A stretch of 40,907 nt of DNA from Verrucomicrobiota bacterium (lineage in GTDB: Bacteria; Verrucomicrobiota; Verrucomicrobiia; Limisphaerales; JACDHS01). The notes under the pieces are model-generated. The model had not been told where the DNA came from. It saw only the letters and a program-made list of their open reading frames with translations, and did not search any database. Made by a program: the position numbers and the translations under genes. How positions within the stretch are numbered: the stretch's first letter is position 1; the number at the start of each line of letters is the position of its first letter. Below, piece after piece: positions 17,845-21,189 of the stretch. The stretch is from positions 1-40,907 of the forward strand of contig JACDHS010000033.1 in assembly GCA_013820875.1 (NCBI GenBank), read 5' to 3'.

Positions 17845-18828
17845 CTATTTTGTTTCCGTGGTTGGAGTCCTGAACGTCGCCACTTCACTCAGGGCACTCT
17901 CCCCACCAGTGTTCACCGCTGAAATCGTCACTTCCACCTCCGCATTCGCTGGCAACTCTTCAAACATAAAATCCGTATCCGTCGGCGTCCCCACCACTTT
18001 TGGTTCAGCATCCACTCCCACCACCTTGATGCGCACCCGATAAGATTCCGCGCGCGGCGCTTTGTCCCACTGCACAGCCCTCACATTCTCTGCCACCGAA
18101 ACCGCCGTGACATTCGTGGGAGTTTCCGGGCGTTCCTTTGTCGCTGGTGCGTTGAAGCCGAACGCTGTCCAACGTCCATCGTCGGGAGCTAAAATCAACG
18201 ACAACTCCTTCACCAATCCCCGCAGCATCTTAAGTAAGAGAGCGAACGCCGCGTCACTCTTCTGCACAAGTGTCGTCAAAGCACCCTCCTGCGCTTTCAC
18301 CGCTGCCCGTGCGTTCTTTATAGCCTCATACCGTTCCGCTGCCTGGGCAGCCGTGATGTTATGCGCAGGAACTTCCTTATCCGGATTCCGAACGAGGTAA
18401 CCGTGAAAAGTTTCCGCCCAAACCTCCAGGTCACTCGCCCGTTCCGAAACGCGAAAGCCACCACGAAACCCCGTCACATCCCAGCCCGGATGATACAAAC
18501 GCCCAAGGGCCGGTTTCAATTGATCCCGCCCCAGCAAAGCAAACTCACGCGTGGCGATCCGTTCCGTCTCCAAAAGTTCCCGCAGCTTGCGCAACTCTTC
18601 CTTGCCCAATTCGCGAGCATCCCGCGCCAGAACGGCTGCTGCTCGAGCGAAGCTCATCGTTACCGCCGTGTTATGCACCAGCCCCACTGTGGCGCTGTGG
18701 CTATCCGCCGCTTCGATCGCAACGTTCATTCTCCCGAGCAATCCACCCTGACTCACCGGTATATTCTGTCTCATAATATCGATTCCAATCTGTTTAAAGT
18801 TCTGTTTTCGTCGCTCGTTGAACTCCAT
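17845..18828 (-). CDS. Fibronectin type III domain protein, otherwise uncharacterised
   Basis: A 327-residue protein with no signal peptide. Residues 1-230 are mostly helical and rich in Ala/Arg/Glu (for example ARDARELGKEELRKLRELLE), with a central GWDVTGFRGGFRVSERASDLEVWAETFHGYL block. Residues about 236-322 form one fibronectin type III domain: TPTNVTAVSVAENVRAVQWD, then AESYRVRIKVVG, then ANAEVEVTISAVNTGGESALS. This layout resembles uncharacterised verrucomicrobial proteins. It may be an intracellular adaptor; no function can be assigned. Its upstream region is the repeat-rich accessory stretch 18829-19571. Confidence 0.6.
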   Translation of the reverse strand: MEFNERRKQNFKQIGIDIMRQNIPVSQGGLLGRMNVAIEAADSHSATVGLVHNTAVTMSFARAAAVLARDARELGKEELRKLRELLETERIATREFALLGRDQLKPALGRLYHPGWDVTGFRGGFRVSERASDLEVWAETFHGYLVRNPDKEVPAHNITAAQAAERYEAIKNARAAVKAQEGALTTLVQKSDAAFALLLKMLRGLVKELSLILAPDDGRWTAFGFNAPATKERPETPTNVTAVSVAENVRAVQWDKAPRAESYRVRIKVVGVDAEPKVVGTPTDTDFMFEELPANAEVEVTISAVNTGGESALSEVATFRTPTTETK

Positions 18829-19067: not shown

Positions 19068-19275
19068 ACGTTCTCAACCCCCATCCGATCTCGTCAAATG
19101 GGAGAAATAACGTTGTTAACCCCATGCGAATCCGTCAAACCCGAGGAATAACGTTCTCAAGTTCCATCTGACGCCGTCAAATGCGGGAAATAACGTTTTC
19201 GAGCACCTCCCGACCCGTCAAACGGAAGGAATAACGTCCGCAGCCGACCTCTGACATCGTCAAACGGCCGGAATA
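19068..19275. repeat. Five tandem 41-42 bp repeats with invariant core
   Basis: Units are at 19068-19109, 19110-19150, 19151-19192, 19193-19233 and 19234-19275, with lengths alternating 42, 41, 42, 41, 42. Every unit contains CGTCAAA, exactly 5 variable bases, G-A/G-AATA and, at each junction, ACGT. This gives a 22-23 bp core separated by 18-20 bp of variable sequence. Odd units 1 and 3 share CTCAA and CCATC words in the interval. The period is about four helical turns, suggesting protein-binding iterons on one DNA face. The lengths are not multiples of three, so it is not coding. Confidence 0.85.
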
Positions 19276-19571
19276 TCACCGTCTGCCTAAACGAAAGCCC
19301 AAAGGACTGTCACAGTTCCAAAGCTACCGGAGCTGCTGACAGATGCGGACCGGGTGCCAACATTTGGTGAGCATCAAGCCAGGCGCTTTCCCATCAGCGA
19401 AAACTAAACCCCCGTTCACTCATTCGCACAAGGATGGCAAACGTTGACTTTCGTTCGGCACCCTTCAACCTTTTCGCAATGACACCCACCAGAGTGACTG
19501 CCAGAAAAACAGATCCAACATCACTTATCAGGGCCAAATGAAATGTGAATCAAATGGTTCGGTAAAGAAGT

Positions 19572-20201
19572 ATGCGCGCCCTTGAGCTACCAAACGAAGT
19601 TCTATCGGAGAAAAATCGCCAGGAGGTTCTGCGCGCATGGATTGATGGTGGGATGTTGTCGATTTCAGTCTGCAACAGGTTTCCGGAAAGGTATCGCGAT
19701 GATCATGCCCAGATCTGGGGAATGCTTCTATCGGATATCTTCCATCATGTTGTAGACGCGGTTGTGCTTGAGACCTCCCGCACCCGCAAGGACGTGCGGG
19801 AGTCCCTGCGACATTCCTTGGAGGAGGTCGTTGGCTCTGACAGGGGAACTCGTTGCGGTGCGTTGAAAATTCACTCACGTTGTGCTTTGCAGCTACCCGA
19901 TCCGGACGTCTCAGGAGATGATAATTGCGTGGAGATAGTGCGGATCGCACTGCTTCCTGATTCGATTCGAGTAATAGTTTTGGTGGGAATGTGGCTTCCC
20001 GACAATGAAGAATCGGTTTGGGGTAACATCCTCTACGACGCTGCGGCAATGATAGCATCAACCTTTAATCCAGAGAGGGACGCCGACAGGGTAAAAGCAG
20101 ATCTGCTCGCAGACATTTTACACTATATCGATCATCCAAGCACGAAATACTCAGGTGAATACTACAACACCCAACCAGAGCGTCGAGCCAAGCGCCGATA
20201 G
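19572..20201 (+). CDS. Tandem DUF5076-type protein, cassette-borne
   Basis: A 209-residue soluble protein. Residues 1-75 (MRALELPNEVLSEKNRQEVLRAWI... IWGMLLSDIFHHV) resemble DUF5076, a small family of unknown function. Residues about 118-185 (VEIVRIALLPDSIRVIVLVGMWLP... VWGNILYDAAAMIAS) repeat the same pattern, so the gene seems to encode two diverged copies. The C-terminus (QPERRAKRR) and the stop lie inside an attC-like site starting at 20169, as is typical of integron gene cassettes. A purine-rich AAAGAAG precedes the ATG. Biological role unknown. Confidence 0.68.
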   Translation: MRALELPNEVLSEKNRQEVLRAWIDGGMLSISVCNRFPERYRDDHAQIWGMLLSDIFHHVVDAVVLETSRTRKDVRESLRHSLEEVVGSDRGTRCGALKIHSRCALQLPDPDVSGDDNCVEIVRIALLPDSIRVIVLVGMWLPDNEESVWGNILYDAAAMIASTFNPERDADRVKADLLADILHYIDHPSTKYSGEYYNTQPERRAKRR

Positions 20202-20276
20202 CGCTCCCTCGTTGCCAATAAACTTTTCGGCTCGCGTGAGTCGCAGGACGGCGCTGGCTCACGCAGGTCGTTAGAA
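20169..20276. other. Integron attC recombination site
   Basis: The R'' box ACCCAAC is at 20169-20175 and the R' box GTTAGAA at 20270-20276. The arms between them pair as GCGT, GAGCCA and GCGCCG in the 5' arm (20180-20197), matching CGGCGC, TGGCTC and ACGC in the 3' arm (20249-20264). The 5' arm carries one extra C (20184) and one extra A (20191). These correspond to the bulged extrahelical bases (G and T on the bottom strand) used by IntI for strand choice. The total of 108 bp falls in the usual attC size range. It spans the stop codon of one gene and ends 3 nt before the next ATG. No intI gene is seen. Confidence 0.82.
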
Positions 20277-20279
20277 ATC

Positions 20280-20582
20280 ATGCAACTCGCGGGAAGCACA
20301 TGCAGAGTCTGTGACCGGAAGATTGTCTTCTCGATAAATGGTCGATATTGCGCACGTTGCGGGAATTGTGCGCATGTTACATGCGAGCCTCAGCCTGACT
20401 GTGGTATTTGTTCTCAGCCATTTCAGCGAGAAGAACCCATCAATCATCAGCCTGACACCGTGGCACCTCCGACGAGTGGCATCCGAGCCGATACAGCAGT
20501 TTCTTTGTTTTTGATCTTTGTGGTGGTTGTCATCTGCATTGGCTATTTCATTGTGACCTATGCGATGGCTCAGGGACATTGA
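20280..20582 (+). CDS. Small zinc-binding membrane protein, cassette-borne
   Basis: A 100-residue protein starting 3 nt after the attC R' box, as expected for a cassette gene. Residues 8-44 hold a treble-clef/RING-like metal cluster: Cys8-Cys11, Cys24-Cys27, Cys30, His32, Cys35 and Cys41-Cys44. Residues about 72-94 are one transmembrane helix (AVSLFLIFVVVVICIGYFIV), followed by a short tail. The metal domain is probably cytoplasmic. Similar Cys-rich N-terminal domains fused to a membrane helix are known in uncharacterised small proteins. No function is assigned. Confidence 0.65.
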   Translation: MQLAGSTCRVCDRKIVFSINGRYCARCGNCAHVTCEPQPDCGICSQPFQREEPINHQPDTVAPPTSGIRADTAVSLFLIFVVVVICIGYFIVTYAMAQGH

Positions 20583-20600
20583 TTCTGTGATGAGAGGATT

Positions 20601-20607
20601 TTCTAAC
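20601..20607 (+). other. Possible R'' box of a truncated second attC
   Basis: TTCTAAC lies 19 nt after the stop of the zinc-binding gene and is exactly complementary to the R' box GTTAGAA at the 5' edge of the same cassette. In an intact cassette the 3' attC arm would be expected to match its own 5' end in this way. No matching 3' arm follows before the FKBP gene, so the site, if real, is truncated. Confidence 0.3.
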
Positions 20608-20688
20608 CAACTGATGGTGACTTGACCTGAGACAGGGCATCGGGGAATGTTTCCGGCAATGCTGCGATTCAACGTGGCAAAATCTATT

Positions 20689-21189
20689 ATGTTAAAACAA
20701 ATCTCCGTCACATTGGCCGCTGCTGTTTGTCTCATCGGCTGCGATAAAGGAACTGAAACCAGCAACAATACCGGTGGTACCGCCGGTGCGCCTCCCGCGA
20801 TTTCAGAAGCACCCGCTACCTCGGCCCCGGCCGCCAGCGAAGGTGAATCCGATATGATCACTACGGAGAGCGGGCTGAAATACAAAGTGTTGAAACGCGG
20901 CGAAGGAACGGTTTCTCCCACGGCGACGGACACGGTGAACGTCCATTATCACGGCACATTGCTTAACGGCAAAGTGTTCGACAGTTCCGTGCAGCGCGGA
21001 CAACCGATCAGTTTCCCATTGAACCAGGTCATTCCCGGCTGGACCGAAGGTGTGCAACTGATGAAAGTGGGCGATAAGTTTAAATTCGAAATTCCTGCCC
21101 CGCTGGCCTATGGCGAGAACAGCCCCACCCCTGCGATCCCGCCGAACAGCACGTTAGTGTTCGAGGTGGAGTTGTTGGGGATTAAGTAG
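20689..21189 (+). CDS. FKBP-type peptidyl-prolyl isomerase, lipoprotein
   Basis: A 166-residue protein from ATG 20689, chosen because it gives a clear lipoprotein signal with lipobox LIGC (Cys17). An upstream in-frame ATG at 20647 would bury it. After a Thr/Ala/Pro-rich linker (residues 20-58), the FKBP domain runs to the end: [55 protein letters not shown] and the terminal [13 protein letters not shown]. Active-site aromatics of the family are present (Tyr and Phe of VHYHG/FDSS, Trp of PGW). It likely folds proteins in the periplasm, tethered to a membrane. Confidence 0.92.

Follow-up and report, generated by a model that had tools for sequence, protein, structure and literature searches.

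Integrons are described as typically having a single attI site, which lies close to the integrase gene. Clusters of at least two attC sites without intI (CALIN) have been interpreted as integrons in decay, as insertions off target or as products of rearrangement (PMC9024848; PMC8618304), and for integrase-less clusters in general an origin by off-target insertion, by loss of intI or by rearrangement has been named (PMC8618304). Because IntegronFinder does not detect attI sites outside class 1 (PMC9024848), an arrangement with many attI sites in one genome would go unseen, and loci of the type described below are presumably labelled CALIN by this program. A literature search for multiple or dispersed attI sites, which did not extend to most subscription journals, found none.

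The locus analysed here belongs to a Verrucomicrobiota bacterium (assembly GCA_013820875.1, contig JACDHS010000033.1, positions 1-40,907 of the forward strand; this whole stretch of 40,907 nt is called the window), the genome of which is available as a draft of 5.70 Mb in 239 contigs (99% complete). It resembles a chromosomal (sedentary) integron in having an attI, cassettes with attC sites and G|TT borders, a promoter-like element upstream of attI and, elsewhere in the genome, remnants of intI that are oriented divergently, as expected, but it differs from such an integron in that an intact intI is missing, that about 20 attI docks are present instead of one, and that the arrays are short and spread over the genome. 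With CALIN and SALIN it shares attC sites without an integrase gene, although, unlike in CALIN, the arrays each begin with an attI that can be recognised as such and that has a conserved motif upstream of it. It is also similar to integron sites borne by phages (PMC9892861), inasmuch as viral contigs show attC sites, and once an attI of the window kind, without intI in the stretches examined; those sites, however, lie on viral contigs and their attC arms are only partly shared with the class of the window. We consider it probable that the genome carries a multi-dock integron, i.e., platforms made of a promoter-like element and attI without intI, at which cassettes were loaded in trans by an integrase that has been lost or lies outside the assembly.

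The attC site of the window

The hairpin at 20169-20276 (forward strand), which was recovered by a covariance model, by folding and by a pairing scan, is, judged by its sequence, a genuine attC, that is, a cassette recombination site. Its R'' box (ACCCAAC, 20169-20175) and R' box (GTTAGAA, 20270-20276) both agree with the consensus RYYYAAC / GTTRRRY, with a deviation at the last base of R' (A instead of Y), and its arms pair in three segments (GCGT/ACGC, GAGCCA/TGGCTC and GCGCCG/CGGCGC). Two extrahelical bases are found on the 5' arm only, C20184 and A20190 or A20191 (G and T on the bottom strand), 6-7 nt apart, and the spacers are CAGA/AGGTC, with an unpaired central spacer. In attC sites, 2-3 extrahelical bases on the R''-L'' arm, with a bottom-strand G and a T 6-8 nt off, and an unpaired central spacer have been described (PMC2727003); the extrahelical bases of the window attC are canonical, since the identity of G and T and their spacing match this description. 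The bottom-strand fold reached z = -3.7 against dinucleotide shuffles, none of 200 shuffles being equally stable. The site spans the stop codon of a DUF5076 gene (TAG, 20199-20201) and its end is 3 nt short of an ATG (20280). A first-pass annotation made from the letters alone had already given this position relative to stop and start codon, together with the boxes, the three arm pairs, the two unpaired bases and the coordinates, and all of these were confirmed, the coordinates being exact.

The covariance-model search that the annotation had proposed was carried out with a model (R1) for which eight further attC sites of this genome, but not the window site, served as the training set. R1 matched exactly 20169-20276 in the genome-wide search (E = 2.2e-11), and, with filters off and the window alone as target, it gave 20169-20275 (E = 6e-12) as the sole significant match. 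A simple scan for R''/stem/R' pairing, which was used alongside R1 for counting attC sites, returned the same single site (20169-20276) in the 40.9-kb window, and a search of Rfam yielded nothing relevant. The hairpin is an inverted repeat, though an imperfect one, and related copies of it occur in the genome; in this it resembles REP-like or terminator repeats that have no tie to cassettes, and a REP repeat was the reading that the annotation itself had set against its own. The R''/R' boxes, the asymmetric extrahelical bases, the G|TT cassette borders and the attI upstream all speak against such a repeat, as do the different genes that lie between copies and the presence of attC sites of the same model on intI-bearing contigs of relatives; with sister sites that border different cassettes, in arrays behind attI, the REP repeat, to which we attach a negligible probability, is excluded.

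attI, cassettes and flanks in the window

Upstream of the attC, at 19498-19559 (forward strand), lies a diverged copy of attI with its crossover at G19557|T19558, and the window thus shows the order of an integron, an attI upstream of the cassette array. The copy was found with an attI profile (R2) that had been built without it (E = 3.5e-6 in the retrieved stretches and 1.3e-7 genome-wide). Given this crossover, the DUF5076 gene is a whole cassette between attI and its own attC: cassette 1 measures 713 bp (19558-20270, forward strand) and is bounded by G|TT at the attI and at the attC, and its gene (19572-20201, forward strand) encodes a protein with two DUF5076 stretches (Pfam PF16826, 7e-21), as the first-pass annotation had it. 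A search of 319 further genomes of the order did not detect this protein in any of them (E<=1e-8), which fits the expectation for an acquired cassette. DUF5076 also occurs in other cassettes of the genome (L026:7021-7398 and L017:8781-9086) and may be a recurrent cargo family of cassettes.

The annotation had interpreted the locus as a solitary attC or a cluster without integrase (SALIN/CALIN). Its statement that no intI is present in the window can be extended to the rest of the assembly, in neither of which a full intI was found, but the attC is not solitary, given the attI upstream and some 20 platforms in the genome. A SALIN is an attC apart from attI and intI, and here an attI lies about 610 bp before the attC; a CALIN has at least two attC sites without intI, and the window has one, although in most sister platforms the number is two or higher. 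A single attC that has no intI nearby would agree with the idea that an integrase encoded elsewhere put one cassette off target into a secondary site; we nevertheless hold this to be very unlikely, because the point of insertion is a recognisable attI with a TTGACT motif upstream and not a random G|TT. This motif (19444-19449, forward strand), which is -35-like and conserved and lies 114 bp before the crossover, is a putative element of a cassette promoter. A sigma-70 promoter scan of the window detected no consensus site, and no consensus -10 was found near the window attI.

The second cassette starts at 20271 (TTAGAA), opens with TTAGAAATC-ATG and carries a gene that, from its sequence, encodes a small Cys-rich (zinc-ribbon-like) membrane protein (20280-20582, forward strand) without a Pfam match. 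No attC was found within 20583-20690 by the covariance model and the pairing scan, and the cassette has evidently lost its attC at the junction with the FKBP gene; CTAACCAAC just before the junction may perhaps be an attC stump. On its right-hand side the platform meets the ancestral FKBP locus, and this junction was placed at 20600-20620 (forward strand) by homology to G001, the sole other member of the family compared. The homology begins at about 20614-20617 of the window, and in G001 the FKBP locus has another gene upstream and no cassette. The order-level relatives that were checked have kept DUF1802-Maf but not the FKBP neighbour and therefore provide no empty-site comparison. Both the attI and the attC of the window are among the most diverged members of their respective sets, and the window copy may for this reason be dead.

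On the other side, upstream of the attI, the window contains a gene for an fn3-containing protein (17845-18828, reverse strand; Pfam fn3), a paralog of which (C61:32648-33771, 90%) is likewise located upstream of attI in the duplicated C61 platform. The fn3 family is multi-copy in this genome (17845-18828 in the window, C130:16013, C61:32648, C9:20324, C109, C229 and C12), and three of the copies (window, C61 and C9) lie upstream of attI sites. Between this gene and the attI, a tandem array with a period of 41-42 bp (19068-19237; TRF) is the sole array of its kind in the window.

attI platforms across the genome

The attI profile gave 21 matches at E<=1 in the genome, of which 17 (the window among them) were at E<1e-6, and no match at all in 27 of the 36 genomes searched. 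R1 gave 17 attC sites at E<=1, a number that is a lower bound, as R1 covers mainly one attC class and at least five other classes occur in the genome. Platforms and attC sites were counted from the model searches and from the platform stretches, which were read over up to 6 kb each. By this count the assembly appears to contain about 20 dispersed attI platforms, at least 13 of them with distinct upstream flanks (the platforms on C155, C149, C68, C156 and C200, where the contigs end close upstream, could be strain variants of others; some attI contigs break 150-850 bp upstream of attI). Two platforms lie on one contig (C69:1525 and C69:40834), which rules out a single variable locus. Arrays of 1-11 attC sites follow 16 of the 20 platforms (pairing scan, stretch read up to 6 kb), and these downstream sites fall, by reading, into about six sequence classes, some of which are common to several platforms. 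Matches of the pairing scan on C133 and C156 (TCGAAGTGAAGCGGG-type arms) and on C200, which resemble other palindromes, were left uncounted.

In platform pairs with detectable homology, the homology reaches G|TT and then ends (between the window and C61, for instance), and the first cassettes differ. One DUF5076 cassette is common to C220 and C69, the two copies being 98% identical with both breakpoints at G|TT. The motif TTGACT/A, reading towards the cassettes, was present 104-140 bp upstream of the crossover at all 20 platforms of the genome that were examined, many of which are interrelated and not independent (the five sites of G001 and the window, A, B and C9b types are more telling), and at 10 of 13 sites of relatives, against a background expectation of 0.04 per 200 nt. 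The consensus sequences of two subgroups, B1 and B2, in which at most the first codons of intI are left, differ at 0 of 29 positions in the attI core and, stepwise upstream, at 3/29, 7/29, 11/29 and 8/38, so that an identical 29-bp core is joined to leaders that are about 20-38% different. As both subgroups are without intI, the core seems to have outlasted the loss of intI in cis. The simplest reading would be selection on the core for use by an integrase in trans, although gene conversion rather than selection could be responsible for part of the conservation; the docks as such may also have been kept by selection and may be active at present.

Most attI copies for which sufficient sequence is available have tandem arrays of 41-43-bp period upstream (window 19068-19237, C220, C69, C56, C9, C20, C18, C156, C200, C61 and C237, and in G001 on C655, C110, C389 and C60); their units differ between arrays and many contain a short dyad. 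Similar arrays also occur away from attI (C127, C198 and C167), and the array was dropped as a defining part of the platform.

Integrase remnants and proposed loading in trans

The first-pass annotation had also suggested a search of the full genome for intI and further attC sites, which was successful for the latter (the 17 sites given above) but not for the former: in the draft assembly, a whole-genome search with TIGR02249 detected fragments only and no integron integrase above the cut-off, along with two Xer-like tyrosine recombinases. The first 92 codons of intI are present in three copies (on C220, C69 and C56), each within a unit of about 900 bp, these units sharing 92-95% identity, and 29 residues of the IntI C-terminus in one copy on C237 (L020:1589-1675). 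On C220 and C69 an attI ending in ...AATGG|TT adjoins the N-terminal intI stump in the expected divergent orientation, and the genome G099, which belongs to another family, has a comparable attI next to its partial intI (60% identical over 87 aa); the attI is considered genuine because the same site adjoins a partial intI in G099 and intI stumps in the genome under study. The remnant on C237 adjoins a 41-bp array, and the flank of this array is, on visual comparison, like the one at the C18 platform.

Ordinary decay might have produced these remnants, if several integrons or segmental duplicates had each lost intI and the platforms were CALIN relics, inert but with an attI that can still be recognised. 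More than one kind of intI stump, the clear segmental duplication of the window and C61 and the eroded appearance of the window platform would be in line with decay, whereas the unchanged attI core in subgroups with strongly different leaders, the TTGACT motif retained at 20 of 20 platforms and the cassette on two platforms argue against it. The sharing of that cassette at 98% identity and with exact borders indicates that recombination seems to have gone on after the docks had multiplied, and we judge decay unlikely, if still a serious competitor.

An intact intI may, alternatively, be present in the organism but outside the draft (on an unbinned repeat contig, a plasmid or a phage), in which case the system would be a normal integron with extra attI copies. 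An assembly in 239 contigs and at 99% completeness leaves room for such a gene, several contigs break near attI, and intI was found above the cut-off in 10 of 30 relatives and in 6 of 14 further genomes. However, C9, C20, C18, C69:40834, C237 and the window have long contiguous upstream sequence without an intact intI, and the related G001 has no intI above the cut-off either. We regard this alternative as doubtful; it overlaps with the multi-dock integron, because it would supply the integrase in trans and leave the multi-dock feature as it is.

Several attI copies are also found in relatives. G001, of the same family, has five to six, most of them with a 41-bp array upstream; G012 has several attI matches, with intI elsewhere in the genome; and G096 has two attI sites of identical sequence that are followed by different arrays, with intI on another contig. 

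For the multi-dock integron, the following course of events can be envisaged. An ancestral integron with intI beside attI would have lost most of intI, by at least two routes to judge from this genome (either 92 codons remain or, at most, the first few). The leftover dock (TTGACT promoter motif, leader and attI) would then have multiplied around the chromosome, and an integron integrase would have inserted and exchanged cassettes at the docks in trans, through recombination between attC and attI at G|TT. At the window dock, the DUF5076 cassette would have been inserted and the array later truncated against the FKBP gene. Since no intact integrase was found, we only infer that an integrase worked in trans after the loss of intI in cis, and TTGACT would, on the same scheme, be part of the cassette promoter. 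In its most specific form, the proposal is a distributed integron with about 20 promoter-attI docks on one chromosome, each with few cassettes, without integrase genes in cis and loaded in trans, the pattern being common to two or more genera of a single family and, in part, to G012, a further genome of the order; we advance this form tentatively, with doubt slightly outweighing confidence.

Dispersed docks suggest a way to explain stray cassette clusters. If the proposal is true, a fourth origin of integrase-less clusters, on-target insertion into attI copies dispersed over the genome, would have to be added, and every first cassette could be served by a separate promoter; if docks multiply and work in trans, some CALIN would not be debris but the outcome of on-target insertion into attI sites that went unrecognised. 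The upstream motif and the attI alignment can be used directly on other genomes.

Among viral sequences, nine contigs from IMG/VR (L097-L105; 10-204 kb) have attC arms that are partly shared with the class of the window, and no intI was seen in the contig stretches examined. In another viral contig of 56.6 kb, likewise without intI in the 6.3 kb examined, an attI-like site (L231:2900-2931) precedes an ATG, and an attC lies about 0.6 kb further downstream.
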